Source of the DNA: a virus
Reading direction: 5' to 3' (one strand)
Length of the DNA: 51,961 bases
Virus record (IMG/VR): IMGVR_UViG_3300037246_000906
Span: 1 to 51,961 of that record
Position numbers and translations under genes: made by a program. The notes under the pieces are model-generated. The model saw nothing but the letters and a program-made list of their open reading frames with translations. It ran no database searches and was not told the origin of the DNA. Every line of letters begins with the position of its first letter. The first letter of the stretch is position 1. This document shows, piece after piece, positions 5,029 through 29,480 of the stretch.

Positions 5029-8000
5029 CGAAATCCTCTTCCTGATCAAATGCGTCATCGGCAATTTCCTCACCAAATTCATCTTCCAATAATTTATGTG
5101 CAGTTTCTTCTGGTACGTTAGCATCAAGTAATTCGTGTTCCCTTTCTATAATATCTTGAACACTTCCTGTAATATTTTTAGGTTCCTCGTCAACTAAGTC
5201 AGTTGCTTCGTCTTTATCCTTATCCACTGTTTCTTTATCTCCACCTTCCTTTTTGGCTTGTTTCTTGTTATCCTTATCGTCTTTTTTAGTATCGGTCTTT
5301 GCCTTTTTCTTTGGTTTTGATTTAGGTTTATCGTCATCTTTTTTGTCTTCGGAGTCAGTTTTGTCTTCGCTTTTCTGCGAATCGCTGTTCTGCGAAGTTT
5401 CCTCGTCTTCCGAATCGTTTATATTAGCGTCACCACTACCTTTACTTTGAGGACTAGAATCCTTTGGCGTATCGGAATCAGCATCAGGTTTAGAACTTGA
5501 TTTAGGACTTGCTTTTTGTTCAGGTTCTTCTAAACCTTGGTCTGCCATTTCAAGTTCTTTTGGGTTTCCATCTTCATCAGTTTCTGTTGGATCTAATGGG
5601 TTATCTTCCTCTGGTGTAAATTCTTCGGGAGTTGTTTCTAGTGTATCCATACTTGGATCGTTTAATTCGGCATTGAATCCGTCTTGTGTCATTGGATCTG
5701 CCATCGGATCTGTTAATGGATCACTCAACTGTCCCTTACTTGCGTCTAGGTGTTGATCATATTCTTCTTTAGTTACAATTTCATATTCAAGTTCTACCTC
5801 TGGTTGTTCCTCATCACTATCAGGTTCTTGGTCAAATCTTAAGTCTGGTACTTCATTACCTTGCTCATCAGTTAAGTCGGTATAATTCATACCAGTTTCA
5901 GGGTCTGTATGTAAAACGTTAGGATCTATTTGTTCCTCATCAATTCCACTATCACTAGGATCGTTTATTGTGTTAGGATCTTGGTCTAATGCAGTTTGAC
6001 CTTCTGGTGTTAATGGTGTTCCACCTAAGCCGTCTAATCCAGCTCTTCCATCATTTTGTTGTATATCTTCTGGTTTTATAATTGCTCCGTCCTCAAGTGG
6101 CTCTCCCTCCTGTTCAAGTGGGTTACTACCGTCTTGGACTTGTTGGCTATTTGGTTTCATGTTAAGTCCTGTGTTATCTAAAATACTATTACTATCATTT
6201 GGTAATAATGGATCCTGTGGTAATCCTGTTTGCTCTTCGTCATGTAATCTCATTTGGCTAGAATCTCCTAGGTTGTTTGTTCCATCTGGATCTGCTGGTG
6301 CTTCAAACTTAGTTGCTTCGTCAGGCATTCCATCATTTGCCATACCATCCAATCCTAATTGTTCTGTTGGCTCTGTATCGAATGGGACTTGGCTTGCATC
6401 CTGTCTTGCTGGGTTAATTCCATTAATGTTACCTTTGTTTGCACTTGGATCGTTTAGTGGTGTATCATCTAATTGGGCTTGACCTTTTTGTGGTTGGTTG
6501 TTTAATTCTGGTGATGGTTCGTCACCTGTTCCGCTGGTAAATGGATCCTCTCCCTCTTTAATATCACGATGCATTACGTTAGGTGCTTCTGGTTTTTGAA
6601 CCTTTGGTTTTTCCATCATTGTAGGCTTTACTGCTTCCTCAAGGTTTTGTCTATCCTCTTTCTTTTTCAATTCTTCTTTATCAAAGTCTGGTGTAAATCC
6701 TTCGCTTGGAACTATTGGTTGTTCGTCTTCATCATTTGCTCCTAGAATCTGTTTATTGGTATTATCTGGTAATGCGTCACTACCACCTGTAACTTTCATA
6801 GTCATATCGGTTGGTGTGTTTGCTATATTGTCTGCTACAAGTGGATCTTTATTCGGCCCTGCGTGTGGGTCTGCGTTGGCTTGTGGTGTATCTGGTGATA
6901 ACTCCATATCATTATTTAAATCGTTAGGGTCTTTGAATGAACCGTCACTGTTTGGATCTATTCCATCATTACCCAATCCTCCTTGTGTATCGTCTCCTGC
7001 CATTCCACCACTTGCTTCTAGGTGTTTGTTATACTCGTCTAAACTAACTTCTGGTACTTCATCAATTTGTGGAATACCTTGGTCGTCTGCGTTTGTAAAT
7101 CTTCCTGCTGTATTATCAGCTGGTTGTAATGCTGGTCTATCTCCACCTCTAGCCATTTTACTTGGGTCGCTTGGTGGTGTTTCACTATCATCTTTATCAA
7201 GTCCATACTCATCCCTAATAGCTGGATCAGTAATTTCAGGTGTTCCATTAATATCATCTAAGCCTTGGCTTACATACAAGTCACTACTACTATTGGAATT
7301 ATCTCCTGCTTTTGGTGGAAGTGGAATTCTTTCTATTGCTTTAATAGCTTCAATTGTTTCTTTAGCAGATAAACCTTCATTTGCAATTTCTTTCATTAAT
7401 CTAGTATGTAGGTTTTCTCCCCTTGGTTTCTTTTCAGGTTGTGGTGTTGTTGTTGGAGTTGGAGTTGGTCTATCCATTTCAAATGGTGACTTTGCACCTG
7501 TTTTTGGTTCACTTACTTTTGGTGCTTGCACTCCACCTTGACTCGCTGGTGCTTTTTGTTTATCCTCACCATCTGCTGGTGGTGTTTTAAATGGATTATC
7601 TCCACTTGCAGGATCTCCTCCTTCACCTTGACCTTGACCTGCAATATCCTGTGTCATTGCGTCCTGCATTTGTATATTCTTTTGATCTTGTTTATCTTGT
7701 TTAAGTTCCTGTTGTTCCTCTTCCCATAATTTGTCGTCTAGTGGGATATTCAATTTTTTATACATTTCTCTAATTTCTTTCTTACTAACTGCTTCTGGGT
7801 CTAAACCTCTAATATCTTCCATTGTAAGTCTCTTCATTGTAGGTGTAAATCCTACCTCAACCTCCATGGCTTCGAAGTCTTGGAATCCCCAACTTTCTGC
7901 TATTGGTTTTAATAATCTATCTTTTATGGTTTCACAAAGCTCACTTTGTAAGTCACCCATTCTTTGATCTAATACATCGAATGGAGTTTGTGAACCTGAA

Positions 8001-8959
8001 TAACTAAATCCTTGTGGATTCTTAATAACGTTAGATGCAAAAATTGTACCAACGTCAATATGGGCATCTACATTATTTCCATATTCGTCAAACTTGCCCT
8101 GTGGTTGAATCTGCAACTCGGCAGATTGAATTGGTTTATCGAAAATCCAAATATATTGGTCTGTGTTAGGATCTGCCATCTCAGCTTGTACTTTATCCAT
8201 TTGGTCTCTTGGCATACCAACTGCACTAACCAGCATTCTTGGTTTTGCCATTTTCTTTTTAATCTCAATTTCTGCGTTTTGTAATTCTGCCTGTGCATCT
8301 AATAGTGGAATACTTTGTCTTGCTGGGTTTATTGCCTCCCCTGTAAATGGATCTATAGTACCTGTAATTGGTCTTGGTGTTGCAAGTGTGTGAAACATTG
8401 ATTTACCAAAAGCCTGTCGGTCTGGGTTGTTAATAGTTGCGTGAATGAAAAACTGAGGATCTAATTCTTTGAAAACACCGTCCACGATTTGAACGATTTT
8501 TAATTCATTACCAAACTGGTCTCTGAATAAACGATAAATTGTCTGCATTGGGATTTGTTCTGTATTACCTAATCTTTGATCAGGTGTATATTGAAGTTCC
8601 ATAATTGCAGAGCCTGTGATTAAAAGTGAAAATATAAATTGTGACCATTTCTTTTCGGAGTTTGTTACGTCCCACCATTTCTCAATAAAAACGTTAAAGT
8701 ATTCATTATTTGATTTAATTTCAATTCCACTACCTCGGAATTTTTGATGCATAACGTCAACGGCAGTTTTTATCTGATCCCAGTGGTGATAATATTGATA
8801 TAATCTTTCAAAGTCAACCTCTGGAAACTCACCGACTAATTGCTTACTCGGGCCGACAATCGTTGCATTTCGCTTTCTAACGATTCCACCTAACAGTGAG
8901 TTAAAGGTCTGAAATACCTTTGGTACGGCTTCTGTTGCCTGTCTTAATCTATCTGCCAT
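5015..8959 (-). CDS. Portal protein with about 900-residue acidic disordered C-terminal extension
   Basis: 1314 residues. Residues 1 to about 415 resemble HK97/SPP1-type portal proteins: an N-terminal helical part, HQKFRGSGIEIKSN, FIFSLLITGSAIMELQY, a stem-like segment with FASNVIKNPQGFSYSG, and a helical end (MEDIRGLDPEAVSKKEIREMY). Portals form the dodecameric DNA channel at one head vertex and are usually 400-550 residues. After about residue 430 the chain is low complexity, rich in D, E, P, N, Q, G and S and poor in aromatics, with a Lys-rich island near 1195-1245. Two related segments, LDEYNKHLEASGG and TKEEYDQHLDASKG, suggest an internal duplication. The tail could serve as a built-in scaffold, which is inference. 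The sequence AGAGGAAAA just before the ATG is a plausible ribosome-binding site. Confidence 0.86.
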   Translation of the reverse strand: MADRLRQATEAVPKVFQTFNSLLGGIVRKRNATIVGPSKQLVGEFPEVDFERLYQYYHHWDQIKTAVDVMHQKFRGSGIEIKSNNEYFNVFIEKWWDVTNSEKKWSQFIFSLLITGSAIMELQYTPDQRLGNTEQIPMQTIYRLFRDQFGNELKIVQIVDGVFKELDPQFFIHATINNPDRQAFGKSMFHTLATPRPITGTIDPFTGEAINPARQSIPLLDAQAELQNAEIEIKKKMAKPRMLVSAVGMPRDQMDKVQAEMADPNTDQYIWIFDKPIQSAELQIQPQGKFDEYGNNVDAHIDVGTIFASNVIKNPQGFSYSGSQTPFDVLDQRMGDLQSELCETIKDRLLKPIAESWGFQDFEAMEVEVGFTPTMKRLTMEDIRGLDPEAVSKKEIREMYKKLNIPLDDKLWEEEQQELKQDKQDQKNIQMQDAMTQDIAGQGQGEGGDPASGDNPFKTPPADGEDKQKAPASQGGVQAPKVSEPKTGAKSPFEMDRPTPTPTTTPQPEKKPRGENLHTRLMKEIANEGLSAKETIEAIKAIERIPLPPKAGDNSNSSSDLYVSQGLDDINGTPEITDPAIRDEYGLDKDDSETPPSDPSKMARGGDRPALQPADNTAGRFTNADDQGIPQIDEVPEVSLDEYNKHLEASGGMAGDDTQGGLGNDGIDPNSDGSFKDPNDLNNDMELSPDTPQANADPHAGPNKDPLVADNIANTPTDMTMKVTGGSDALPDNTNKQILGANDEDEQPIVPSEGFTPDFDKEELKKKEDRQNLEEAVKPTMMEKPKVQKPEAPNVMHRDIKEGEDPFTSGTGDEPSPELNNQPQKGQAQLDDTPLNDPSANKGNINGINPARQDASQVPFDTEPTEQLGLDGMANDGMPDEATKFEAPADPDGTNNLGDSSQMRLHDEEQTGLPQDPLLPNDSNSILDNTGLNMKPNSQQVQDGSNPLEQEGEPLEDGAIIKPEDIQQNDGRAGLDGLGGTPLTPEGQTALDQDPNTINDPSDSGIDEEQIDPNVLHTDPETGMNYTDLTDEQGNEVPDLRFDQEPDSDEEQPEVELEYEIVTKEEYDQHLDASKGQLSDPLTDPMADPMTQDGFNAELNDPSMDTLETTPEEFTPEEDNPLDPTETDEDGNPKELEMADQGLEEPEQKASPKSSSKPDADSDTPKDSSPQSKGSGDANINDSEDEETSQNSDSQKSEDKTDSEDKKDDDKPKSKPKKKAKTDTKKDDKDNKKQAKKEGGDKETVDKDKDEATDLVDEEPKNITGSVQDIIEREHELLDANVPEETAHKLLEDEFGEEIADDAFDQEEDFDEEK

Positions 8960-9009: not shown

Positions 9010-9339
9010 TTATTCGTCAACTGAAAAACCCGTCCATGAACCCATAAATTTGGAACCACTCGGATAATTAGCAACGCCTCTTATTTTCCACCTTCCAGCG
9101 TCTGTAAATAATCCAACCGTATCCGTAAATGTTACTTGACCATCCGTTCCATCTGTTACAAAAGACGCAACTAATTCAGGTAAAACTTCACCTCTTGGTT
9201 TTTGGAGTTCAATTGTTACACTGCTGGTTCCACTCAAATCTACGACTTCCTCCACCCCTGCCACAATTCTGGTAACTGTGGTTGATAAAACGGTTCCTAT
9301 CTGCCCGACTCTTATAAAATCATCAAATGTACTACTCAA
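9010..9339 (-). CDS. Baseplate upper protein (BppU N-terminal, DUF2479)-like small virion protein
   Basis: 109 residues with a TTG start that overlaps the stop of the giant gene as TTGA. The pattern GQIGTVLSTTV, then VVDLSGTSSVTIELQKPRGE, then TDGTDGQVTFTD and GRWKIRGVANYPSG resembles the beta-sandwich found at the N-terminus of BppU-type baseplate proteins and related small tail proteins. The usual family order is a null-to-limit DLSG strand, a lysine-proline turn, a TDGTDG hairpin and a final W.i.g strand. It likely docks a fibre onto the tail. Translational coupling to the giant repeat protein suggests the two work together, for instance as adaptor and fibre. Confidence 0.65.
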   Translation of the reverse strand: MSSTFDDFIRVGQIGTVLSTTVTRIVAGVEEVVDLSGTSSVTIELQKPRGEVLPELVASFVTDGTDGQVTFTDTVGLFTDAGRWKIRGVANYPSGSKFMGSWTGFSVDE

Positions 9340-12300
9340 TTTCCTTCACTATCCTTGATGCGTGTAATGAAATTTAAGCTTATTTTAATTCTAGTAACAA
9401 AGTCCAAGCTGTCCCTAATTACCGTATTCCAATCAAATGTATCCTTAACTATGGTTCCAAATATTATACTATCCCTAATTACTGTATTCCATGATAGATC
9501 ACTCATTCCAAGTATTGTGGTAAATGCTATACTATCCTTAATTGTAGTTCCAAATGATATTCCTTCTCTTATCAAAGTTAGGAAAACAACACTTAATCGT
9601 ATTCTTGTTGGGAATGTTATACTTTCCCTAATTGTTGTATTGAATAATATACTTGGTCTGATTATTGTTGTGAATAATAATACAGATGGTCTTACGAAAC
9701 TTGAGAATAAATCTTCAAATATATCTATTACTGGTTCTATTAATTCTCTAAATAACTCTAATTCTCTTATTATTGTATCATCTACCACAATAGTTTCAAA
9801 TGCACTACCAACGGTTCCTGCGATTCTTACAACTTCATCTATCATATTAATTACTGGTTCATTTATAAATCTGAACAGGTCTGCTATGCCAGTTACAATA
9901 TCATCCACAGTTATTGTGTTAGTTAATATTCTGAATATTTCAATCTGTCTTATAACCTCATCAAGTTGTATAATAGTGTTCAATGGTGTTCTAAACATAT
10001 TCAATACTCTTATAACTTGATCATTTGTTGGAATGAACTGATTAGGAACAACTCTAGATAATGCAATCTTTAAATCGTCTAATGGGTCTAGTGAGTTAAG
10101 CAATATTCTGAATAAGTTAATCTGTCTTACTATATTGTCTGCTCCTATTACGACTGTATCAAACAAATCTGCTGGTCTAATTCTAGTTGCAAGTATTGAA
10201 TCTACTGGGTCAAATAATATGGTTTCTGCTATTGTTCTAAACAATTCAATAGTTCTATCTACAGCGTCATCAAGTATAACGTTGTTAAGTAATGTTCTAA
10301 AGTATGTTTGATTGTATGTTATTACATCGTCTAATACAATAGTGTTTGCTATTACTCTAAATGCTCCTATTACCCTTACCACAACATCACTCAATGCGAT
10401 AACCTCGGCACCAATCATTATTCTAGCATTACCCAGTGTTCTTTGAACTCCCTCAAATGCTGTATTGTTTTCCAACAATATTCTAAACAATTCCAATACA
10501 CGTATAATGGTATCATTTTGTGTAATAGTTTCTGCCAAGTCTCTAAATAATCCCATAAATATTGACTCGCTTAAAACAACAGTTTCTGCCATACTTCTAA
10601 ACATATCTATCTGTCTTATTACAAAGTGTGGGAGTAGTGTAGATTCAATCAGTGTTCTAAACAATACAATTACTCTTATTACTTGATCACTTACTGCAAT
10701 AACTGGTGTATCGTTAATTACCCTAATATTTGCAAGTATTCTAATAACGTCATCACTTAGAACAACTGTATTAAGCAAGATTCTAAAGAATGTCTGGTTG
10801 AATGTTATATTATCGTCTAATATAATTGTGTTAAGTAAAACTCTGAATAAATCAATTTGTCTAATTACATCATCAGTTAAATTAACTGCTTGTTCTGCAA
10901 TAAATCTCAATGTGTTTCTAATACCTGTAACAGTATCACTTAGTGTAATTACCTCTGCACCTATTACTGCTCTAAATAATTCTATAACCCTTACCACAGG
11001 ATCATTAATAACTACCGTATTCAATAACACTCTAAATTCTACCATTAATCTTACTACATCATCACTTAGTGTAATTGTGTTAAGTAAGACTCTGAAATTA
11101 TTTAATACTCTTATCACGTCATCACTTAGTGTTACTATTTCCGCTCCTATCACGTCTCTAAATAATGCTATTGTTGGACTTCCCACATCATCAATAACAA
11201 CATTATTAAGTAACACTCTAAACAAATTAATCTGTCTAATAACATCGTCAGTTAAATTAACTGCTTGTTCTGCAATATCTCTTAATCTATCCCTTACTGC
11301 TATAATCACATCAGATACTGCTATTATATCACCAGTGTTAATTATTCTAAACAAGTTTGCTACATCTGCCAATGCGTCATTTACCACAACATTGTTAAGT
11401 AATACTCTGAATAGGTTAATTTGTCTTACAAGTACTTCTGCTCCAATTATAACATTATTGAATACGATTACTACAGTTAAGTTAATTAATCTTATAATAT
11501 CATCTACAGGTTGTATGTTTTCACTTAATGCTCTGAACATTTCCAACACACGTATAACAGTGTCATTTTGTGTAACAGTGTTAAGTAATACTCTAAATGC
11601 AGTTTGTAGTCTAATTAATGAATCATTAATGATAACTGTTTCTGCAAGGACTCTAAATTGATCAAGTCGTCTAATCACAGCATCGCCTACCACAATAGTA
11701 TCTGCTAATAATCTAAACTGATCAAGTCTTCTAATTACACTTTCTACTGGAATAACGATTGTTTCACTTAATACCCTTGGAACGTCTCTTACCCTTGAAA
11801 TAACATCATTGATAACAACAGTGTTTAATAGTATTCTAAACAATTCAATCTGTCTTATCACGTTATCGAATGTTATATTTGGTACGTTTTCGGCAAGGGC
11901 TCTAAATAAGTCAATTTGTCGAATAACAGCATCACTTACCACAATTATTTCTGCTCCTATTACAGTTCTGAATAAGTCAACGTCTGGATTACCAACATCA
12001 ATAATAACAACATTTTCACTTAATGCTCTGAATAATTCTATAACTCTTATAACACTATCATTTATCGCAACGTTTTCTGCAAGTGTTCTAAAGTTACCTA
12101 CAACTGCTATTAAGAAGTGTGGTAATAGTATATTCTCATTAAGTGTTCTAATATTTGCAAGAACACGTATAACGGAATCACTTAATACAACTGTGTTAAA
12201 TGTTATTCTAAATTGATCTAGTCTTCTAACAACTGCGTCACTAAGTACAACCGTTTCAGATAAGAAGAATCCTAGTGTTGTTGCTATTGTATCATCAAGA

Positions 12301-15300
12301 TTAACTGCTTCACTAATTTCTCTCACCTTACCAGCTATTCTATCTAATACATCATCTAATACAACTGTGTCAAGCATTGTTCTAAACATTACTGTATTTC
12401 TAACAACAACATCAATAACAGTAATATTTTCAATTAATTCTCTAACCACTCCCAATGTTCTAATTACAGCATCGTCTAGTGTTATAATATCACCAGTGTT
12501 AATTATTCTAAACATTTCTAAGATTCTATTAACAGTATCTCCAACTACAACTGTATTCAATAACACTCTAAACTGGTCAAGTCTTCTAATTACATCATCA
12601 CTTAATGTTATTATATCTGCTCCTATAACACTTCTAAACATATCTATCTGTCTTATTACATTATCAGATATTACAACAGTATTAGGTAAAAGTCTTGTTA
12701 TGTTTGTGATAATATTATCAATACCGATAATAACGTTTTCAGACATATTTCTAAAGAAGTCAATTACTCTATCAACATCGTCATTTACCACAACATTGTT
12801 AAGCAACACTCTAAACTGTGTTATACTTCTAATCACTGCGTCATTAACTACAACATTGTTAAGTAGAACTCTAATTAATCCTAACTGTCTTATTACATCA
12901 TCGCTTAATGCAATTATCTCTGCACCAATTATGGCTCTAAACTGGTCAATAGTTCTATTAACAGCATCGTTTATTACAACAGTATTAAGTAATATTCTTT
13001 CTAATGTTATACTTCTAACTACATCGTCACTAAGTGCAATAGTATTAAGTAATATTCTACCTAATCCTAGTGATCTAATAACAGTTTCTACTGGAATTAT
13101 AATAGTTTCTAATGGAACTATTCTAAACATTTCTAATAATCTATCAACACTATCTATCGCATTGGCTACAAATTGTAATATGTTTCTTGGAACGTCTCTA
13201 GCCACTTGTACTATATCTGCTCCTATTGTAACTGTTTCTGCTATTATTCTAAAGAAGTCAATTACTCTAACAACAGCGTCACTAACTGCAATGTTTTCTG
13301 AAAGTGTTCTAAACAACTCAATTACACGTATAACAGTATCGTTTTGTGTTATAGTTTCTGAAATGTTTCTAAGGAAGCTATTTGTTGCAACAACAACATC
13401 GTTAATTACGACTGTTTCACTGATTAGTCTAAACAAATTTGCAATATCTACTACAACATCACTTAACACCACATTATTTGTTAATATTCGTTGTAAATCT
13501 AACCGTCTTATTACACTATCTAAAAGTATAATTGGTGCCTCAAGTGGTGATACAAGTTTATCAGTAAATGATACTTCTAATGGAGTCACTACGAAAATTG
13601 TATTTTCTGCCAAGTTTCTAAACAGTTCCAATAATCTTACAAAGTTATCACTGATCGCTACGTTTTCTGTAACTAATCTTGGAACTCCTCTAATACCTGT
13701 TATTAGATCATCAATTATTTCAACACCACCACTAATAAAGAATCCACTTAAGGTAAATCCACTACCAGTAAATCCTCTTCCCTCAAATATGAATCGGAAG
13801 AATTGAACGTTAGATATAACACCAGATACCACATCTTGTATTGTTACACCTCCACCTGTGAACCCACTAAGTGTAAATCCTTCGGTAAATGCTCTAAACT
13901 CACTTATCACTCTAGATAAAGAAAGTAATCTACCAACACCATCACTTAAACTAATGACTGATTCTGCGATGAATGCTGGTAGATTTTTAATCTTTGCCAC
14001 GTTATCATTGATAATAACGGTTTCTGCTATAACTTTGCCAAGTGCCAATCCTATTGTGTCTATAAATTGAACTCCTCCACCAATAGCGAAGCCACTAATT
14101 GTGAATCCAGTTTGTGTGAATCCACTCGCCTCGTTAATGAATCGGAATAAGTTACCTATATGTTCTATTACATTTAGTGAATCTGTTATTTGTGCTACAT
14201 CTTCCATTGTAAAACCAGTTTGTGTGAACCCACTAATTACGAATCCTCTTGTTGCAGTTAGAATTCTATTAAGTGCTAATATTCTATTTGTTATGTTACT
14301 AACACTAATACTCTCAATTAACCCTCTTCCAAGTCCGCTGATAAGTGTTTCCAATACTCCTACGTTTTCACTTGCTGTTCTTACACTTCCTCTTATTCTT
14401 GCTACAGTATCACCTATAAACACTCCTCCACCCATTGTAAACCCAGCTGTAAATCCACTAATTGTAAATCCTGCACTTTCAAATATATTTCTAAAGAAGT
14501 CTTCTGGTACTATTGCAGTTATTGAATCAAATACATTGGCACCTCCATGTAGGAAGAATCCACTACTAGTAAATCCAGTTGAAATAAAACCTTGAATTTG
14601 TAATAGTATTCTACTCAAAGATAATTGTCTTGTAATTGTATCAAATATTGGTTCAACCTCTAATACATTTCTTATGAATCCAAACTCGTTAATTATTCTT
14701 GCTACAACGTCAGATATTGAAGTTGTATCACCAGTTGTAATATCCCTGATAAACCCTTTAACACCTATTACAACATCACTAATGAATACTCCACCAATAC
14801 CATCACTTATAGTAAATCCACTAAGTTGGAATCCACTAAATGTAAATCCTCGGCTTTCTAATAATCCTCTAAATGCGTCTATTTTTCTTATAACACTATC
14901 ACTAATTACTATGATTTCGGCACCAATTACTGGTCTTAAGAATCCAAACTCGTTAATTATTTCTTCTACAATATCAGATAATATAGTGTTTTCCGTTATT
15001 ATTACATAAGCATTATAGAATCTTGGGAATATGAAGTCATTAATAGCAACTCCTCCACCTTGAACGAATCCACTTAGTGTAAATCCACTTAGACTATATC
15101 CACTACTTTCTGCAATATCTCTAAAGAAGTTCCCTATTCTTGTGGTTCCACCTATAATTTCATCTACAATAACACCTCTATCAATTACAAATCCAGTTTC
15201 AGTAAATCCAGTGTAAACGAATCCACTAATCACACTTATTATTCTGTTAAGGTCAACCTTTCTTACAATTGAATCTAAGAACGATATACCACCCTCAACC

Positions 15301-18300
15301 ATTGTTCTTAATAATGGAATCGTTGCTCTACCTACAATATCGTTATTTGTTATTGTATCTGTGATAAATTTACCTACATCCTTACTAATAGTATCACTGA
15401 TAAATACTCCACCGTCATGGAAGAATCCACTTGATGTAAAGCCAGCAAGTGTGTATCCACTAGATTCGAATATCTCTCTAAATAAGTTCCCAGTATGTTT
15501 TAGAGGTATTACTACATCTGCTACATGTATTCCACCGAAGTTTACAAATCCACTTTCTGTAAATCCAGTAATTGAAAAACCACTCTCCTCTAATATAATT
15601 CTTAGGTTGTTTAACTTTCTACCAATTATGTTAGAAACATTTATAACAGGTTCACCTATATTTCTAATAGCAGATAAGACTTTGGCAATGACGTCTGACT
15701 GTGATATAGTGTCAACAAGGGCTACATTTAATGAAGTAACTCTTGCCACTACATCACCAATAAACACCCCTCCACCGTGTACGAATCCCTCGGTAAATCC
15801 TGTAAGTGTAAAGCCACTAGATTCGAATATTTCTCTAAAGAAGTCGAGACCAGTTTCCACCGTACTAATACTATCTTCAAGTAATACTCCACCCAACTTG
15901 TAGAATCCACTATCAGTAAACCCACTCCAAGTAAACCCTCTAATCTCTACTATATTTCTAAACTGATCAAGTACTCTAATAATAGAATCCACTTGTAACA
16001 CTGTTTCATTTAGAATAGCAAATACATGTCCAATTCCACCTGTGACTACATCATCAGTAAGTAATATTTGATTATCTGTAATATTTTTAAGTTGACCTAA
16101 ACTACCACTAACTGTATCACCTACGAACTGAGTTATATTAATTACAAATCCACTTGCAGTAAATCCACTAACTGTAAATCCACTAACTTCCAATATCTCT
16201 CTAAGTAGGACTATTAATCTATCAACACTATCAAGTGGGTTAATTGACTCTGTCAATGTTCTTGAAAATCCAGCTATTCTTTCAACTATATCGCCTAATA
16301 CTATATTTTCTGATCCAATTACTGTTCTAATTGCTCCAACACTAGATGTTATAATCTCACTAAAGAATACACCTCCACCAGTTGTTTCTGGTGATGTAAA
16401 TCCACTTAAAGCGAATCCAGTTAAAGTAAATCCTCTGGTTTCAAATATGGTTCTAAACATTTCAATAACCCTTACAACACTATCTCCTTGTGTAACAGTA
16501 TCAAATATAGGTCTCACCGTACCAAACAAGTTGATTTGACCTATAACATCATCTAACTGTGTTACTGTATCAATTATAGAATATGAAACTCCTTTTGTTA
16601 TAATATCGAATATCTGCACTCCACCCTGCACGAATCCATCGGTAAATCCTGTAACAGTAAATCCAGTTCCCTCAAATATTGTTCTGAAAAATGCGTGTAT
16701 TGAAGCCTGTCCGTCTACAACATCAGATACAGAAATTCCAAAATTCTCGGTAAACCCACTTAGTGTGAATCCACTAAATGTGAAACCACTAGACTCACTA
16801 ATTGTTCTTGCAAAGTTACTAATTCTATTTACCACATCATCTAACACAGTTGTTTCACTAGCAATTCTTGAGAATGGATCACCAAGTCTACTTATAATAT
16901 CATCTAATATTGTTGTACTACTTGTAACTCTAGTTAGTGTTAGCATTCTGTCTACAACATCACTTACAAACACTCCTCCGTTCTTATAGAAACCACTTGC
17001 TGTGAATCCACTAAGTGAGTATCCAGCAGTTTCAAATATGTTTCTGAAAAAGTCACCACTAGTAACCCTAATTACACTATCACTAACAAATATTCCACCA
17101 AACTTTACAAATCCTTCTGTAAATCCAGTTGCAGTAAAACCACTTTCCTCCAACACAATTCTAAAGTTATCTATCTGTCTACCAATAACTTCTAATGGAA
17201 TAGTAACTGCCTCTGACATTCCATATGTAATTGCTTTCTTTATTGTATCAAGTATTGGTATGTTTTCAGTTGTTATTGTTCTTGTTAATACACTAATTCT
17301 ACTAACCACATCACCCACGAATACACCACCATCATGGAAGAATCCCTCGGTAAATCCAGTTAGGGTAAATCCACTTGTTTCGAATATGTTTCTAATTAAA
17401 TCTACATTTACTATTGAACTAATACTATCATGTATGAATGCTCCACCTTGTAAGAAGAAACCACTAGCAGTAAATCCAGTTGTGGTAAATCCTTGAATTT
17501 CTAAGAATGTTCTAAATTGATCAAGTAATCTAATAACAGTATCATTTTGTGTTATTGTGTCTGCAAAGAATCTTAAGTTTCCAAACTCATTAATTATTTC
17601 TACCACATCATCAGATATTGCAGTTATATCACCAGTGTTAATTTCACCAACAAACCCAAATCCTCTTTCTATAACATCACCAACAGCAACTCCACCAGCA
17701 TATAAGAAACCACTGGCAGTAAATCCACTTAATGTAAAACTGAATGAATCTTCTAATATTGCTCTTAATGAAACCAATAGTCTATCAACTCCATCATCAA
17801 CTACAATAGTTTCAATTGCTGGTCTAAATATACCGAAGAAGTTTATTATTCCACTAACAACGTCACCAGTAGTTATTGTGTTACTGATAATTCTTAATAA
17901 TGAAGTTGCTCTACCTACAATATCATTTATTATAACATCTTCACTTATAACTCCGAATTTAGTGAAACCATTAATTAATTCCTCAACTGGAACTATAACT
18001 GTTTCACCTATTGTTCTAAAACTTGTTATAATTCTAATAATAGGATCGTTGATAACTACATTTTCGGCAACAAATAATATTCTTTGTATTGACTGTGTTG
18101 CTACATCACTAAGTATGATAAAGTCTGTTAGTTGGAATGTATGTAATCCTCTTTGGAATCTAATCTTTCTACCAACCTCATCTAGTAATCCAGTAACACC
18201 GTCTGCGATAAATCTTGGTCTATCTTGGATACCACTTATAATATCACTAATCGCAGTCGCGTGTGTAAAGAATCCAGTTATTGTAAATCCACTAATAGTA

Positions 18301-21029
18301 AAACCTTGAACATCTATTACACTTCTAAACGCAACAGTTAGTCTGTTTGCTATATCACCTACAACAACGTTTTCGGTTACAAATCTCAAGTTTCCAAACT
18401 CGTTTATTATTCTAGCAACAACATCACTAATCGCAATTATTGGAGTATCGTTAATTGTTACTGACTGTGATCTAAATGCAGTTACAACATCATTAAGTCC
18501 TGCTCCACCTATCTTAAACCCACTAATAACGAATCCTGTTAGGGTAAATCCTCCTGCCTCCAATATATTTCTAAAGAAGTTTGCTATTCTAGTAACTCCA
18601 ACAACTATATCTTCTATTATAATTTTATTACTCTCAGTAAAGAATCCACTAAGTGTGAATCCACTAATGGTAAAACTTCCTGCTGATATTGTTCTAACTA
18701 AACCGTGTACTCTATCTATTATGTTACTAACCACAACAGTATTAACAAGGTTTACTACTCTACCAATAACACCTACAACATCATCATTTGTAGTTATAGT
18801 TTCACTTAATTGTTTACCAACTGCCTTACCTATACTATCTAATAAATAAACTCCACCGTTAAACCTAAACCCAGATAATGTAAAACCACTAAGTGTGTAT
18901 CCACTTTGTTCTACAATATTTCTAAATAACTCAGTAATTCTAACCACACCAAGTGGACTATCATCTACATATATTGCGTTATCAAACACGAATCCTGTAC
19001 TACTAAATCCAGTTCTTACGAAACCAGTTGTTTCTATTATTGTTCTTACAACATCAACTACAGATCCAATTATCTCGGAAGTGTTTGGATGGAAAGAAAA
19101 TCCTTGTAATTCTTTGAAAAAGTCAAACTTTGTTGCAACTTGATCACCCAATGCAGTTATGTTTGCTCCCAAGAATTTACTTACATCTTTCTGTATTGTA
19201 TCAAGTACAAACACTCCACCATTATTAAAGAATCCACTTGTAGAAAATCCAGTTAAACTAAATCCTGCTGTTTCGTTAATTGTTCTAAATAGATTTCCTG
19301 TATGTTTAACAATTTGTATTATATCTTGGTTGTATATACCTTTACTAAACTCGAATCCACTTTTGGTGAATCCACTAACTGTAAATCCAACACTGCTTAA
19401 TAATGTTCTAAATGCTCCAAGTGATCCTATAATAGTTTCAATTGGTATAGTTATGTTTTCTACCATACCATATGTTACACCTCTCTTTATTGCATCGCTA
19501 ATTGACTCGCTTTCGGCTAATATTCTTGTTAATACATTAAGTCTACTAACTACATCACCTACGAACACACCTCCTGCGTGGTAGAATCCTTCGGTAAATC
19601 CAGTTAGAGTAAATCCACTAGTCTCGAATATTTCTCTGAAAAAGTCACCACTTGCCTGCATTGCATCATCAAGTATTGGTACACCTGTGTTTAGGGTAAA
19701 CCCACTTGTTGTGAATCCACTAATTACGAACCCAAACTGTTCAGAAATATTTCTAAAGTATTCAATAACTCTATCTACACTATCAGATTGTGTTACAGTT
19801 TCTACGATAAATCTTAAGTTTCCAAACTCGTTTATTATCTCAGCAACAACATCATTTCTTGTTATTATGTCGCCAGTGTTAATTATTCTGCCTACCTCTC
19901 TAACACGGTTTACAATATCGGTAACATAATATTGGTTTAATACGAAACCACTTTGAGTAAAACCTGTGAAAGTGAATCCTGTCACTTCCAGCACATTTCT
20001 AAAGGCTTCTATTACCCTTATTACACTATCACTCTGTGTAACGGTATTATTAATGTTTCGTTTTAATGCGATCAGTCTATCTTCTATTGTATCACTTAAC
20101 ACATTGATCTCGGCACCAATTACTGTTTCGGCTAATCCGATAGATTTAATAACGGCATCTTCAAAGAGAACACCACCATAAGTGAAACCCTGAGTAAATC
20201 CAGTTAATGTAAAGCCTCTGCTTTCTAAAATGGATCTACTACTTACAAGTAATCTTCCTACAATATCACTCTGTGCAACTGTGTTACCAATGTTTCTCAA
20301 AAATCCGAATGCGTTGATCACTCCACCAACCACATCATCAAATATTGTTGTTTCAAGTATTGGGCTACTTGAACCCTTACTAATATTTCCAGTAATAATT
20401 ATTCCATCATCGCCTACAACGAATCCACTTGGTGTGAAACCAGTCTTTGTAATACCACCTGAATGTAATATTATTCTAAACATATCAATTAATCTATTTG
20501 TTATGTCAGAAGTTATAACGGTATCATCAATAAATCGTATATTACCAAACAGGTTTATGAATCTAAGTACTGTATCGTTTACAACAAATCCGTTTAATGT
20601 TTTTCTAAACTCTCCTTTTACAACACTGTCTTCTAAACCTAATGCACTTTCTAAAGTAAATCCACTTTTTGTTAAACCAGTTACTGTAAATCCTTTTCCG
20701 TTAATTGCATTTCTGATAAATTTTGCTATTCTAGTTACTGGACTACTTGAAGTAATATTTTCAATTGCATTTCTTAATAATCCAAATTTATTTACAATAG
20801 CTTCTATTATATTATCACTAGGTATTCCAATATTCTCTGCTGGTTTTACTAATTCCCCTTTATTCAGATTTTCTATTACTTGAACTATTTCTTTTGTAAA
20901 TCCACTGGCGCTAAACCCACTTGGGAAGAATCCACCAGTATCTAAAACAACTCTTAAAAATAGAATAATTCTGTTTAGAGTATCGTTACGCGTAACCGTA
21001 TCGTTAAGCCCTCTTGGGAAATCAGTCAT
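9336..21029 (-). CDS. Giant 3897-residue repeat protein, putative tail fibre or surface adhesin
   Basis: One uninterrupted frame of 11.7 kb, almost a quarter of the window. No Cys was seen, Lys is scarce, and Ile, Val, Asn, Thr, Asp, Arg and Phe dominate. Three repeat regimes are visible. Residues 1 to about 2440 hold roughly 36 copies of an FRxILExxGFTxxGFTxSGF block, often followed by GGVFxxDxI. Residues about 2440-3770 are a near-perfect 20-residue repeat (FRxLLNTVVIxDxVIRxIxx). The last 120 or so residues repeat every 10 (TxIRDSIxFx). The GFT block appears to be an insertion into the 20-residue unit. Periodic hydrophobic strands with conserved Asn/Asp suggest a beta-solenoid fibre. Neighbours are tail-fibre and baseplate-like genes. 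There is no recognised homologue family, and a tape measure is less likely because that class is helical. Confidence 0.85.
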   Translation of the reverse strand: MTDFPRGLNDTVTRNDTLNRIILFLRVVLDTGGFFPSGFSASGFTKEIVQVIENLNKGELVKPAENIGIPSDNIIEAIVNKFGLLRNAIENITSSSPVTRIAKFIRNAINGKGFTVTGLTKSGFTLESALGLEDSVVKGEFRKTLNGFVVNDTVLRFINLFGNIRFIDDTVITSDITNRLIDMFRIILHSGGITKTGFTPSGFVVGDDGIIITGNISKGSSSPILETTIFDDVVGGVINAFGFLRNIGNTVAQSDIVGRLLVSSRSILESRGFTLTGFTQGFTYGGVLFEDAVIKSIGLAETVIGAEINVLSDTIEDRLIALKRNINNTVTQSDSVIRVIEAFRNVLEVTGFTFTGFTQSGFVLNQYYVTDIVNRVREVGRIINTGDIITRNDVVAEIINEFGNLRFIVETVTQSDSVDRVIEYFRNISEQFGFVISGFTTSGFTLNTGVPILDDAMQASGDFFREIFETSGFTLTGFTEGFYHAGGVFVGDVVSRLNVLTRILAESESISDAIKRGVTYGMVENITIPIETIIGSLGAFRTLLSSVGFTVSGFTKSGFEFSKGIYNQDIIQIVKHTGNLFRTINETAGFSLTGFSTSGFFNNGGVFVLDTIQKDVSKFLGANITALGDQVATKFDFFKELQGFSFHPNTSEIIGSVVDVVRTIIETTGFVRTGFSSTGFVFDNAIYVDDSPLGVVRITELFRNIVEQSGYTLSGFTLSGFRFNGGVYLLDSIGKAVGKQLSETITTNDDVVGVIGRVVNLVNTVVVSNIIDRVHGLVRTISAGSFTISGFTLSGFFTESNKIIIEDIVVGVTRIANFFRNILEAGGFTLTGFVISGFKIGGAGLNDVVTAFRSQSVTINDTPIIAISDVVARIINEFGNLRFVTENVVVGDIANRLTVAFRSVIDVQGFTISGFTITGFFTHATAISDIISGIQDRPRFIADGVTGLLDEVGRKIRFQRGLHTFQLTDFIILSDVATQSIQRILFVAENVVINDPIIRIITSFRTIGETVIVPVEELINGFTKFGVISEDVIINDIVGRATSLLRIISNTITTGDVVSGIINFFGIFRPAIETIVVDDGVDRLLVSLRAILEDSFSFTLSGFTASGFLYAGGVAVGDVIERGFGFVGEINTGDITAISDDVVEIINEFGNLRFFADTITQNDTVIRLLDQFRTFLEIQGFTTTGFTASGFFLQGGAFIHDSISSIVNVDLIRNIFETSGFTLTGFTEGFFHDGGVFVGDVVSRISVLTRTITTENIPILDTIKKAITYGMSEAVTIPLEVIGRQIDNFRIVLEESGFTATGFTEGFVKFGGIFVSDSVIRVTSGDFFRNIFETAGYSLSGFTASGFYKNGGVFVSDVVDRMLTLTRVTSSTTILDDIISRLGDPFSRIASETTVLDDVVNRISNFARTISESSGFTFSGFTLSGFTENFGISVSDVVDGQASIHAFFRTIFEGTGFTVTGFTDGFVQGGVQIFDIITKGVSYSIIDTVTQLDDVIGQINLFGTVRPIFDTVTQGDSVVRVIEMFRTIFETRGFTLTGFALSGFTSPETTGGGVFFSEIITSSVGAIRTVIGSENIVLGDIVERIAGFSRTLTESINPLDSVDRLIVLLREILEVSGFTVSGFTASGFVINITQFVGDTVSGSLGQLKNITDNQILLTDDVVTGGIGHVFAILNETVLQVDSIIRVLDQFRNIVEIRGFTWSGFTDSGFYKLGGVLLEDSISTVETGLDFFREIFESSGFTLTGFTEGFVHGGGVFIGDVVARVTSLNVALVDTISQSDVIAKVLSAIRNIGEPVINVSNIIGRKLNNLRIILEESGFSITGFTESGFVNFGGIHVADVVIPLKHTGNLFREIFESSGYTLAGFTSSGFFHDGGVFISDTISKDVGKFITDTITNNDIVGRATIPLLRTMVEGGISFLDSIVRKVDLNRIISVISGFVYTGFTETGFVIDRGVIVDEIIGGTTRIGNFFRDIAESSGYSLSGFTLSGFVQGGGVAINDFIFPRFYNAYVIITENTILSDIVEEIINEFGFLRPVIGAEIIVISDSVIRKIDAFRGLLESRGFTFSGFQLSGFTISDGIGGVFISDVVIGVKGFIRDITTGDTTSISDVVARIINEFGFIRNVLEVEPIFDTITRQLSLSRILLQIQGFISTGFTSSGFFLHGGANVFDSITAIVPEDFFRNIFESAGFTISGFTAGFTMGGGVFIGDTVARIRGSVRTASENVGVLETLISGLGRGLIESISVSNITNRILALNRILTATRGFVISGFTQTGFTMEDVAQITDSLNVIEHIGNLFRFINEASGFTQTGFTISGFAIGGGVQFIDTIGLALGKVIAETVIINDNVAKIKNLPAFIAESVISLSDGVGRLLSLSRVISEFRAFTEGFTLSGFTGGGVTIQDVVSGVISNVQFFRFIFEGRGFTGSGFTLSGFFISGGVEIIDDLITGIRGVPRLVTENVAISDNFVRLLELFRNLAENTIFVVTPLEVSFTDKLVSPLEAPIILLDSVIRRLDLQRILTNNVVLSDVVVDIANLFRLISETVVINDVVVATNSFLRNISETITQNDTVIRVIELFRTLSENIAVSDAVVRVIDFFRIIAETVTIGADIVQVARDVPRNILQFVANAIDSVDRLLEMFRIVPLETIIIPVETVIRSLGLGRILLNTIALSDDVVRSITLERILLNTVVINDAVNRTIDQFRAIIGAEIIALSDDVIRQLGLIRVLLNNVVVNDAVIRSITQFRVLLNNVVVNDDVDRVIDFFRNMSENVIIGIDNIITNITRLLPNTVVISDNVIRQIDMFRSVIGADIITLSDDVIRRLDQFRVLLNTVVVGDTVNRILEMFRIINTGDIITLDDAVIRTLGVVRELIENITVIDVVVRNTVMFRTMLDTVVLDDVLDRIAGKVREISEAVNLDDTIATTLGFFLSETVVLSDAVVRRLDQFRITFNTVVLSDSVIRVLANIRTLNENILLPHFLIAVVGNFRTLAENVAINDSVIRVIELFRALSENVVIIDVGNPDVDLFRTVIGAEIIVVSDAVIRQIDLFRALAENVPNITFDNVIRQIELFRILLNTVVINDVISRVRDVPRVLSETIVIPVESVIRRLDQFRLLADTIVVGDAVIRRLDQFRVLAETVIINDSLIRLQTAFRVLLNTVTQNDTVIRVLEMFRALSENIQPVDDIIRLINLTVVIVFNNVIIGAEVLVRQINLFRVLLNNVVVNDALADVANLFRIINTGDIIAVSDVIIAVRDRLRDIAEQAVNLTDDVIRQINLFRVLLNNVVIDDVGSPTIALFRDVIGAEIVTLSDDVIRVLNNFRVLLNTITLSDDVVRLMVEFRVLLNTVVINDPVVRVIELFRAVIGAEVITLSDTVTGIRNTLRFIAEQAVNLTDDVIRQIDLFRVLLNTIILDDNITFNQTFFRILLNTVVLSDDVIRILANIRVINDTPVIAVSDQVIRVIVLFRTLIESTLLPHFVIRQIDMFRSMAETVVLSESIFMGLFRDLAETITQNDTIIRVLELFRILLENNTAFEGVQRTLGNARIMIGAEVIALSDVVVRVIGAFRVIANTIVLDDVITYNQTYFRTLLNNVILDDAVDRTIELFRTIAETILFDPVDSILATRIRPADLFDTVVIGADNIVRQINLFRILLNSLDPLDDLKIALSRVVPNQFIPTNDQVIRVLNMFRTPLNTIIQLDEVIRQIEIFRILTNTITVDDIVTGIADLFRFINEPVINMIDEVVRIAGTVGSAFETIVVDDTIIRELELFRELIEPVIDIFEDLFSSFVRPSVLLFTTIIRPSILFNTTIRESITFPTRIRLSVVFLTLIREGISFGTTIKDSIAFTTILGMSDLSWNTVIRDSIIFGTIVKDTFDWNTVIRDSLDFVTRIKISLNFITRIKDSEGN
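9339..9695 (-). repeat. Coding repeat array 3: 10-residue (30-base) units at the C-terminus
   Basis: The last stretch repeats every 10 residues: TTIRESITFP, TRIRLSVVFL, TLIREGISFG, TTIKDSIAFT, TVIRDSIIFG, TVIRDSLDFV. Period 10 is half of the 20-residue unit upstream, suggesting a simplified form of the same strand-turn pattern at the end of the chain. Confidence 0.8.
9750..13700 (-). repeat. Coding repeat array 2: 20-residue (60-base) units
   Basis: About 65 tandem units of 20 residues each, such as FRLLADTIVVGDAVIRRLDQ followed by FRVLAETVIINDSLIRLQTA. Invariant features are FR at the start, N/E/D-T-V in the middle, an Asp, and V-I-R near the end. Some units carry a six-residue insert (IGAEII, INTGDII). 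Confidence 0.85.
13700..20990 (-). repeat. Coding repeat array 1: about 36 GFT-type units
   Basis: The first two thirds of the giant gene repeats units of about 60-75 residues whose core is FR, three to six residues, GFT, two residues, GF, three residues, SGF. Examples are GFTLTGFTEGF, GFTVSGFTKSGF and GYTLSGFTLSGF. I counted about 36 cores by eye. The units are diverged but keep reading frame, so selection acts on the protein. Confidence 0.85.
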
Positions 21030-21079: not shown

Positions 21080-21646
21080 TTACCCTAATGTTAAAGTCCA
21101 AGTAACTGTTAGTGTATCGTTTAACTGAAGACTTGCTGGTGTAAACGTATTCTCGTGTCCCAATGTACCTGAGACTGGTGCGGTGTCTATATCAAATAGT
21201 CCTGCTAATTGTACTGCGGTGTGGATTCCTCCAGCTGTGAAAGTATTGGCTACTGTTGATGTATTCTGTGTTGGAATATGTGTGTGTATTGAAGCGTCTA
21301 CTCTTTCTAAGCCGTCTCCTGTAATTTCACCAGCTACAAATGTGTGTGAAGCGTCTGCTCCACTTGCGTTTACTGATAGTGCAATAATGTTAAATCCCAG
21401 TTGAGTTGCAGTTACTTGCTCGACATATAGTGCGTCGTGCATTGCGTCTCTTCCTGCTGTAGTTAAAAGATTGTGTTTATTCTTACAAAGAACTTCTTCA
21501 TCTTCTCTACCTTCGTTTTTAACAACGGTTACAAAGCCGTGAATTACTTGGTGTTCCTCGAATCCTCTTTTTGTGGCTTGCTCAAAACTACCTAACTCAT
21601 TTGCTCCGATTTTATCAACCATACCGTTATCTACTATGTCGGTCAT
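21080..21646 (-). CDS. Putative tail structural protein
   Basis: 188 residues, starting inside the previous stop (ATGA). The central KNKHNLLTTAGRDAMHDALYVEQ followed by a beta-rich, Ala/Thr-rich part resembles minor tail proteins that carry an N(L/I)(V/L)TTAGRD signature before a strand-rich domain. HTHIPTQNTSTVANTF and the terminal TLTVTWTLTLG are strand patterns of a capsid- or fibre-like fold. Likely part of the tail tip or fibre set with the neighbours on both sides. The exact role is unknown. Confidence 0.6.
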   Translation of the reverse strand: MTDIVDNGMVDKIGANELGSFEQATKRGFEEHQVIHGFVTVVKNEGREDEEVLCKNKHNLLTTAGRDAMHDALYVEQVTATQLGFNIIALSVNASGADASHTFVAGEITGDGLERVDASIHTHIPTQNTSTVANTFTAGGIHTAVQLAGLFDIDTAPVSGTLGHENTFTPASLQLNDTLTVTWTLTLG

Positions 21647-21873
21647 TCTTCTTCTGAACTCCCTTGTAGAAGCATGGTTTTACATTCTTGACAAAGTGCT
21701 GGTGGTTTTGCTCCGAACTTACCTGTAAAGGTAAATTTTTGTGATAGTCCACATTGGTTACATGGTGCTGTCCCATAAATTGTATGAACGTTATCAGCGT
21801 TATGTGCTGTCAACTCTTCCATAGAATCACAAGAAAAATCATGTTTTCCGCATTTGAAAATTCCTTCTGGCAT
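21643..21873 (-). CDS. Zinc-finger protein (C2H2 plus CxxC knuckles)
   Basis: 76 residues: FKCGKHDFSCDSMEELTAHNADNVH is a C/C...H/H pattern, followed by CNQCG and CQEC, a second four-Cys knuckle. Two zinc sites are likely. It is the first gene of a two-gene unit behind an ATGCTTATATA promoter and is coupled to the tail protein by ATGA. No family recognised. It could be a structural or folding accessory, or a late regulator. Confidence 0.75.
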   Translation of the reverse strand: MPEGIFKCGKHDFSCDSMEELTAHNADNVHTIYGTAPCNQCGLSQKFTFTGKFGAKPPALCQECKTMLLQGSSEEE

Positions 21874-21923: not shown

Positions 21924-24900
21924 CTACATTACGGTTCTTACGCCATCGGGATCGTCTTCGTCCCATTGATTGTCAACTGTATTCTTCTCAAGTCTGTAGT
22001 GGAAGTGTGCTGTAACATCTACGTGGTATCTTCTATACATAATTCTATTAATTACAATTCCACTAGAATCAGTTGTTCCTACAATTTGAGTCCAAAGTGT
22101 TGGAGTTTGGTGGTTTCCTTCTAAAACCCTGTTTACTACGAAGAATCTAAATACATCATCTGTAATATCAGCAGTATCTATTGTTCTAACAGTATCTGCG
22201 TCTGTGAAGAATAAGTTTCCTGTAATATTCTGTCTGATTTTAAACTGTGTTTCTTTAAATCTATCTGCTTGGAAGTGAATTGCATATCCTACTGGATCAT
22301 AGTGCATTTCTCTTAATCCAACATTGTCTGGATTACCTGTTCCTTGTATTGGGAATGCATTCTTTCCTCTGTTAGCGTCGTCCCAAATCTGTATTTTCTC
22401 TATTTTTCCTTGAATAGTAGAATCACTTGTACTTGCGTCATTGTTATTCTTAACAATAAAGTGATCCATTGTAATTAATGTTGATACACAGTCTAAAGTA
22501 GCATTTTCATGTGTTTCAATTTTCATATCTTCATCACTATATACAGACACTCCATATCCTGTTCCCGTATTTCTATAAACTCTAATATAATATTTAGTTC
22601 CCAATACATATGGGTTTACTATTACTGCGTCTGCTAAATTATTTAATACTCCATTAAGTGCAGAATCATATCCACCGATTGCACTTTCATTACTTGCGTG
22701 AGTAACCTTTATACCAATACTGTGGTGTGTTCCGTTTGCACCTATTGTACTATCTCTTTGATCAACTCCGATAAATAATTCTGCTGGAGTTGTTGTGTTT
22801 GCAAAGTGTGAAGTTATTGTTAATTCCATTCTCATTTCCCATTCAATATTACTTAATGCGCTTGGTGTAATATCTGAACCAAGTGCATAACTTATACTAT
22901 CATTAGAGTTATCACGTTTACAGTCAAAGTCAAGTCTATTATCAACTACATTAATATCAATGTTTGCACTATCTTGTGGCAACCATTTAACGTGTGCTTC
23001 TTCTATATTACTATATTCTGTAAAGTCTTCAACCATTCTTGGAATAGCGTGTCCTAGAATTAATTGTGGTGGATAATTGTCACCTGTACCTTTTGCAGTA
23101 TCAGAAACCCAGTAATCATTTACATTACCAGCAATATCTACATTAAGTACACCTTGTGCTGGTTCACCAGTTACATTACATCTTAGAATAGAACTATCTG
23201 AGTTCCAAAATTGTAACATATCGAATTCTATTGTTCTATCTCCAGAATTACTTATACTTGCGTCATTGGTAATTTTCCATTGTGCTAAATTATCTATTAA
23301 ACTTGTTATTGATACTGTTTTTAATAATGAACTTGCGTAAACAAATTTCTTGTCTACTCCAAAGAATTGGAATGTAAATGTTCCAGTTCCTGTTCTAATA
23401 ATTTCCCAGTGATACCAAATATCTGGTTCCATAACAACAACGAAAGTTTCTTCTATTGTTGAAGTTTCTAAGCCTTGTTCGTTTGCTTCAACACTTTCTA
23501 CTGTGTATGTTGTGCTTGCACTATTTTTAATTCTAATTCCCATAAAGTCATGATTTGCTGTTGAAGCACTACCAGAATCTAAGTTACTTAATCCAATATA
23601 AATATCTCCACCGCTTGCACCGTCTGCTTTTGCTGAGATTAATGTTCTAAATCTTGCAGTCCAAAGAGAATTATTTCTGTCTGATCCATAATCGAAACTT
23701 ACTGAGTCGTTTGTAGTATCACCTACACACTGGCAAGTCATTCTATCATTAACTGGATCTATTGTAAATTTAGTATGGTCACTTGTTAGCCAACCCTCTT
23801 GAGTTGAAGGTGAACTTGTATGTGCTACTCCACCGTCAAAGAATGCGTCGTCAGTAATTATTTCTTGAGTACCATAAGAATTACTCCACCAACCTTCTAA
23901 TAATGTGGTTGTAATTGGTGTTACTGGTAATGGTGTACCTAAGAAAGTTGTATTTGGTGTTGTATCTAAATAGTGTGCATGGTTTCTGTCATTGTTTGCT
24001 TGGTTTAATAGATCTCCAATTGAACTGAATCTTTTTGGATCTAAGTTTAATACACCTGTGTTAGTTAGTGTTGCGTCTCCGCTCATTGTTACACTTTGTC
24101 CTTCATTAGAACCATCACCAACAATTAAGTCTGCGTTATTAACTGCGATTTTTGCTGGTGCTATATCTGCACTTGTTTTAATATCTGCATTTGCAATGTT
24201 TGTAATAGTGTTGTTATCGGAATCAATTTGTTTGTTTGTTAAAACATCATTTGTTGCTTGACCTACAAGTGTATCATCTGCGTCTGGGAAAGTAATACTT
24301 CTGTCTGTACTTGCTATTGAAATTAATGTAAGTGTAGTTGCTGTAGTTGCTCCTGCGTTACTAAATGCTACTTGTTTAGAAGTATCACCGTCGTCTTGAA
24401 CTCTGAATAATGTGTCCAAGAATGTAGTTGTTCCACTTCCTGCGAATTGTGTAAACACTCCTGCTTTTCTAACTAGTAATGTTGGTACGGTTTCTGAAAG
24501 ATTAATATCTACTCCGCCTTGTAAGAATAAATCATCTGAGGCAGGTGCTGGGTTGTGTGTTATTGTAATTGTATCTCCAATTTTTGCGTATAATGCTACA
24601 ACATCATCGTCTGATAATCCTGTTAAGGTATCAAGTGTATCTACAGTTCCAGTTTCTGCTGTTACTTCGATTGCTGTTGAAGTTACTGCCAATGCTCCTG
24701 TTGAGATTGCAGTTTGTGTAATTGGTAATCCTAAAATTGCACTAATGTCAATACCTTTGTTTGTAAGGTTTTGAGCTTGTGCGTTAAATGTAATTTCGTC
24801 ATTGCCTGTTAAAAGAGGGAAAGTAACATCTCTATCTGCTGTGATTGCAGAAGATTGAACGATATAAGTAAAGTCGCCTGCTGGGTTTATAATATGTAAT

Positions 24901-29351: not shown

Positions 29352-29480
29352 CTATATAATCGTTACCTTCTGTATAAAAGCATTGGTTAATTTGTAATGA
29401 AAGACTAATTTTCCATAATTTGAACCATTAGCCCACTTTAAAAATACTCTCTCCTTTAAACATAGTTTACACTCACACAT
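29352..29480 (-). CDS. Microprotein with CxCxxC motif
   Basis: 42 residues starting MCECKLCLKERV, then a segment with strand pattern (GKLVFHYKLTN). It overlaps the end of the NMN adenylyltransferase gene by 8 bases (ATGTGTGA), which supports translational coupling. The three close Cys could bind a metal with one other ligand. The 3' half overlaps a possible promoter of the next gene (29372-29383), so I hold it with moderate confidence. Confidence 0.5.
   Translation of the reverse strand: MCECKLCLKERVFLKWANGSNYGKLVFHYKLTNAFIQKVTII

Follow-up and report, generated by a model that had tools for sequence, protein, structure and literature searches.

Described relatives

Among described viruses of archaea, Pro-Nvie1 (FR725450), a provirus of Nitrososphaera viennensis, encodes relatives of the portal and of the protease of the virus studied here, and its portal is the sole GenBank phage match of the viral portal (27%, E-value 2e-4). 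However, the tail fibre annotated in Pro-Nvie1 is of ~188 amino acids and there is no giant repeat gene among its 32 annotated features, whereas in the window analysed here, a 51,961-base IMG/VR record classed as 'linear' and probably an incomplete genome, one repetitive gene takes up nearly a quarter of the known sequence of the virus. A second point of comparison is offered by the extremely long-tailed phage P74-26, the tail of which is nearly 1 micrometre long (PMC10034513). Tape-measure proteins of the P74-26 type resemble the giant protein of the window in being very long, repetitive and possibly helical, but differ from it in the position of their gene, and relatives of the giant are accompanied by a separate, small tape-measure candidate. 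In the literature searched, no protein such as the giant is described in viruses of these archaea, and a small form of it may already appear in work on head-tailed viruses of Marine Group I. Our best reading is that the giant represents a tail-module repeat protein enlarged to an extreme, built on a 20-residue lattice that is also that of giant surface proteins of the hosts.

Architecture of the giant repeat protein

The giant gene (9336..21029, minus strand) is a single open frame of 3,897 codons with an ATG start and a TGA stop, while the plus frame of the same region is packed with stops, and its GC content at the three codon positions (0.43/0.37/0.18) is typical of true coding sequence. 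An earlier note on this DNA had described a single gene for 3,897 residues, nearly a quarter of the window, and a product devoid of Cys; both statements hold, with the strand now added. The repeat unit has the consensus L-F-R-[IV]-L-L-E-T-V-V-[IL]-S-D-D-V-I-R-Q-I-D (in summary form LFRxLLETVVxSDDVIRxID), its conserved positions being the even ones. Identity autocorrelation at a lag of 20 reaches a z-score of 15 over residues 2650-3650, and with a cyclic 20-column profile, which finds units from end to end, the score is 3,215 as opposed to 356-500 for shuffled sequences, in agreement with the period of 20 residues which that note had seen throughout the protein. The number of diverged 20-residue units lies between 110, when the conserved Arg is counted, and 134, when the conserved Asp is counted. 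The previous figures of about 65 plain units and about 36 GFT blocks are a fair undercount; of the blocks we find 35, as GFxxxGF clusters. In the gene, Tandem Repeats Finder detects no more than short arrays of low copy number, and the units are thus old and diverged.

The GFxxxGF clusters are restricted to residues 33-2430 and their spacings alternate between ~41 and ~78 residues. The distance from Asp12 of one unit to Arg2 of the next is 10 residues in 77 of ~108 cases, whereas from Arg2 to Asp12 plain units have 10-12 residues and units with a GFT block mostly 27-33. Since the former spacing is constant and the latter variable, the GFT blocks are insertions at a single fixed site of the unit, which upholds and sharpens the earlier view of them as inserted elements. 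Three parts can be delineated along the chain, viz., a GFT-bearing part in which 20-residue units are broken by the 35 blocks (residues 33-2450; 13680..20933, minus strand), a plain part made of 20/22-residue units (residues 2451-3790; 9660..13679, minus strand), and a C-terminal array of 10-residue repeats of the form xRDSIxFxTx (residues 3791-3893; 9351..9659, minus strand), recognized by autocorrelation and from the sequence. The C-terminal 10-residue array had been noticed previously and is borne out by a z-score of 5.6 at a lag of 10 in the last ~100 residues. A further level of organization, absent from the earlier description, consists of four super-modules of ~370 residues that are mutually 44-46% identical and lie, all on the minus strand, at residues 424-780 (18690..19760), 1171-1540 (16410..17519), 1689-2060 (14850..15965) and 2138-2450 (13680..14618). 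Comparison of the giant with the repeat families of Pfam, NCBIfam and the PDB gave no match at the curated cut-off; weak Pfam, PHROG and NCBIfam matches were dismissed as chance, and PPR matches in the PDB were likewise dismissed (E-values of 0.09 or higher).

Gene neighbourhood and affinity of the virus

On the minus strand, to which all the genes of this region belong, the giant is the sixth in a series of nine genes. The series begins with an M10 (matrixin) metalloprotease (25488..26246; Pfam E-value 1.1e-20) and continues with a small protein of 108 residues, probably structural judging from its sequence and with no confident family (25128..25454), and a tail-fibre-like protein of 1,046 residues (21924..25064), which has weak tblastn matches in the related contig L163 and carries an 'NLTNKGID'-type motif that we take to be tail-fibre-like. 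There follow a Cys-rich, putative zinc protein of 76 residues (21643..21873) and, directly upstream of the giant, the 188-residue protein p188 (21080..21646), both of which have homologues in the contigs L158 and L159; p188 also matches phrog_5417 weakly, and this family connects it with a gene upstream of marine fibres. Downstream of the giant are an Ig-like protein of 109 residues (9010..9339), a portal with a long acidic tail (5015..8959) and a prohead-protease gene that extends past the contig end (2..4699). The TTG start of the Ig-like gene overlaps the TGA stop of the giant (TTGA), and AAGGA is found just 5' of it.

Only the first ~430 residues of the 1,314-residue portal product match other portals, the remainder being an acidic tail rich in Pro, Asp and Glu, and the portal relatives found are of ~380-580 residues. 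The prohead protease domain occupies approximately residues 1286-1443, after ~1,280 N-terminal residues that have no counterpart in the relatives. The metalloprotease is ~50% identical across many related contigs (L158, L159, L160, L166, L168, L174, L188 and L191 among them) and is usually located upstream of the portal. Elsewhere in the window, minus-strand metabolic or DNA genes at 42372-43292, 29473-29943, 45612-46514 and 41385-42068 encode an RNase Z-like protein of the beta-lactamase fold, a nucleotidyltransferase (CTP_transf_like), an ATP-dependent DNA ligase and a DNA methylase.

Of 400 genomes from the class to which a Nitrosopumilus MAG belongs, 20 contain relatives of the portal (two-row portal profile), and the closest provirus contig, L145, shares with the window its metalloprotease (38%), portal (31%) and protease (40%). 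The portal matches and the similarity to L145 thus place the virus with those of Nitrososphaeria, and it very probably infects archaea of this ammonia-oxidizer class. Single-sequence scans of viral and genome contigs with the portal and the protease found no match, and neither did a scan with a two-row portal alignment; matches were obtained with the metalloprotease and with four-row portal alignments.

In L145 the metalloprotease immediately precedes the portal with no gene in between, and the block in the window that runs from the 108-residue protein through the fibre-like, zinc, p188 and giant genes to the Ig-like gene is therefore an accessory cassette. L158 and L159 show the order metalloprotease, zinc protein and p188 (46-49% identity), followed by a fibre-like gene in the slot of the giant, which in L158 encodes 405 residues. 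L158 may also hold a second portal-like gene between the terminase and the metalloprotease (L158:2092-3753), and a candidate portal-like gene may be present upstream of the metalloprotease in L159 (L159:3-1205); both differ from the portal of the window.

A probable small counterpart in marine viral contigs

Three portal-related marine contigs (L198, L199 and L200) matched the repeat profile with Cys-free proteins of 391, 584 and 582 residues (L198:8772-9944, L199:8274-10025, L200:8007-9752), in which the unit is FRNISDTVGITESFNRLRTQ and LEDGSG-type blocks occur in between. Like the GFT blocks of the window protein, these short blocks (LLEDGSGNYLLEDGSGNYxQD) sit between the units. Right after each of the three proteins there is an Ig-like gene with a product 27-33% identical to that encoded at 9010-9339 of the window, with E-values down to 2e-12. 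A search for the Ig-like gene in other related contigs found two more, L201 and L203, in which the upstream gene again encodes a protein of 20-residue repeats, of 638 and 607 residues. Hence in five of five related IMG/VR marine contigs, and in the window as well, the gene immediately preceding the Ig-like one encodes a Cys-free protein of 20-residue repeats, the identity of the Ig-like proteins having been compared directly in three. When the unit profiles of the window and the marine proteins are compared, a single rotation out of twenty fits, with a score of 11.7 against -8.3 for the next best. However, in Smith-Waterman alignments of the giant with marine proteins the forward score fell below the reversed one in all three tested. 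With a reversed giant that does no worse than the forward one, the repeats as such do not prove homology, and the case for a correspondence rests on the lattice and on the neighbouring genes. A likeness of the C-terminal tails of the marine proteins and the giant was rejected, as their alignment was no better than that of shuffles.

The marine proteins thus resemble the giant in their 20-residue lattice in the same register, the lack of Cys, the additional blocks and the adjacent Ig-like gene. They differ from it in having ~14-26 units as against 110-134, in the type of block, and in the location of the cassette, which follows the capsid genes in the marine contigs and precedes the portal in the window; neither super-modules nor a 10-residue tail array are demonstrated in them, unlike in the giant. 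Searches with tblastn of the giant, the host repeats and the marine repeats against GenBank phages gave no match at the limits used, nor did single-sequence and unit-alignment scans for the repeats across viral contigs and genome contigs.

The arrangement of these genes bears directly on a reading of the giant as the tail tape measure of an extremely long-tailed virus, in which 3,897 residues at 1.5 Å each would correspond to ~580 nm. It is the largest gene of the window, its units are compatible with helix, and there is one weak PHROG tape-measure match (E-value 0.0027). Yet the tape measure annotated in Pro-Nvie1 is a protein of 594 residues encoded after the major tail protein, and in that slot L145 and the marine L198 hold a gene of ~224 residues, assigned by position and composition; in the marine contigs the small repeat protein and the tape-measure candidate are separate genes. 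The giant in turn precedes the portal and adjoins p188 and the fibre genes. The tape-measure reading therefore fails on gene position, given that Pro-Nvie1, L145 and L198 have another gene in that place, and we regard it as most improbable.

We favour instead, as somewhat probable, that a head-tailed virus of Nitrososphaeria makes the giant as a very long, repetitive tail-module protein, and that a component of 391-638 residues in the marine viruses would here have been enlarged six- to ten-fold. The earlier suggestion of a fibre-like virion protein gains support from the position of the giant between p188 and the Ig-like gene and from the occurrence of the same pair of repeat protein and Ig-like gene in the fibre or tail module of the five contigs.

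Repeats on the same lattice in giant surface proteins of Nitrososphaeria

The unit profile finds matches in 38 of 300 Nitrososphaeria genomes at an E-value of up to 1 (best 4e-16), nearly all of which are long frames, of up to 5,212 residues. One such host protein, L110, has 3,483 residues, with ~135 units between ends that resemble a signal peptide and a membrane anchor. The host giants (L110, L111, L112, L115, L116 and L117) resemble the viral protein in their unit, R-x-L-x-[ED]-x-x-x-[IL]-x-D-x-V-x-R, but differ from it in their secretion-signal-like and anchor-like ends, in their Ser/Thr-rich odd positions and in lacking convincing GFT blocks; searches for the GFT block in host genomes gave short matches only, the best with an E-value of 1e-3. 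No repeat match was found in plasmid sequences at the limits used. L110, L111 and L112 share an almost identical C-terminal tail (KARFNYPM, QRFDYPL and RARFDYPL), preceded by a hydrophobic segment and suggestive of a common anchoring or sorting signal. The three genomes that encode them have no AmoA match. An AmoA search of the three genomes in which the repeat matched best was negative, although these may be incomplete. In L115 and L116 the repeat parts are nearly identical tandem units (arrays of 80 and 20 residues), a sign that they expanded recently, unlike the diverged units of the virus.

The C-terminal third of the giant matches L110 in BLASTP with 243 bits and an E-value of 1e-68 (26% over 1,201 residues), and hhalign gives the giant and the host repeats a probability of 97.8%. 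These figures overstate the case, because R-Phi-E-Phi-Phi-D-Phi-R reads almost the same in either direction and a reversed decoy attains 96.8%. A reversed-alignment decoy likewise matched the host giants, which weakens the claim of homology of the repeats. In Smith-Waterman alignments of the giant with host proteins the forward score exceeded the reversed one in six of six, mostly slightly and clearly in two. With a pattern so close to a palindrome and reversed scores so near to the forward ones, the repeats by themselves are insufficient proof of homology. We nevertheless consider that host and viral repeats probably share ancestry, through a transfer that may have gone in either direction. 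The earlier note had named a strong resemblance to a host surface-layer protein as grounds against its own interpretation; this applies in part, the likeness found being to giant host surface proteins and not to a demonstrated S-layer lattice protein. The kind of protein, which that note did not recognize, is now partly identified, its lattice being present also in the surface giants of Nitrososphaeria and in the small tail-module protein.

The lattice common to the giant and the host surface giants also invites the view that the giant is a viral copy of such a protein that acts outside the virion, displayed or released by infected cells, for example in blocking superinfection or masking the cell. 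Unlike the host proteins, however, the giant has by inspection neither a signal peptide nor a C-terminal membrane anchor, both of its ends being repeats that lack a hydrophobic stretch of this type, and it sits in a structural module where the Ig-like gene overlaps it. A role outside the virion hence appears improbable, and we retain that of a tail-module protein.

Fold of the repeat unit

The earlier note had proposed a long beta-solenoid fibre. Many phage fibres are rich in beta-structure, the Val, Ile and Thr content of the giant is high, and in the host units the odd positions are almost all Ser or Thr while the even positions are conserved, as in beta-structure. However, there is one variable loop per 20 residues, whereas one would expect two or three turns in a solenoid rung of that length. 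Moreover, the hydrophobic moment of the 15 rigid residues of each unit peaks at 100-110 degrees, and not at 160-180, in the virus and in three hosts. AlphaFold2 models of two slices of the giant, made with internal-repeat alignments, had pLDDT values of 31 and 32, with helices drawn but no confident fold. The beta-solenoid is thus unsupported by the AlphaFold2 models, by the position of the moment and by the match of a host relative to the designed helical-repeat protein DHR14 (E-value 1.7e-9), and we consider it fairly unlikely.

The analysis leans instead towards a unit made of one amphipathic helix and one variable loop. Such units could build a helical-repeat rod or alpha-solenoid, with a helix of ~15 residues, a Ser/Thr/Asn-Asp cap and a linker of five residues, compatible with a tail-module arm. 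The fixed spacing from Asp12 to Arg2, the helix-like moment, the concentration of Pro in the linker of the host units and the DHR14 match are all consistent with it. On the other hand, the alternation of Thr and Ser in the host units is odd for a helix, DHR14 is a designed protein whose match is probably one of pattern only, and the helices drawn by AlphaFold2 at a pLDDT of ~31 carry no evidential weight. We therefore hold the helical repeat tentatively, at somewhat less than an even chance, with the weight not taken by it or by the beta-solenoid falling to other folds or to no stable fold.

A proposed tail-module arm and its implications

Based on the neighbourhood and lattice discussed above, we hypothesize that the giant plausibly emerged from the form of 391-638 residues by the addition of 20-residue units and GFT blocks. 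Each unit would contribute a rigid element of ~15 residues and a variable loop, with the extra blocks placed beside or between units, and the chain may project from the virion tail as an extended arm, with its neighbours probably providing an anchor close to the neck or the baseplate. Such an arm could span the host envelope, made up of glycoproteins and of giant surface proteins that in some cases have the same lattice. It is further conceivable, though unlikely, that a virion arm of host-type units binds or threads the host coat through repeat-to-repeat contact, the number of units being set by the thickness of the coat. If this were true, unit number would track coat thickness, from 14-26 in the marine contigs to more than 110 in the window.

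Little is known of how head-tailed viruses recognize ammonia-oxidizing archaea and their kin, which are very abundant microbes. The repeat protein beside the Ig-like gene is a testable candidate for such recognition, as its unit number varies about ten-fold between related viruses and its lattice recurs in the giant surface proteins of the hosts.
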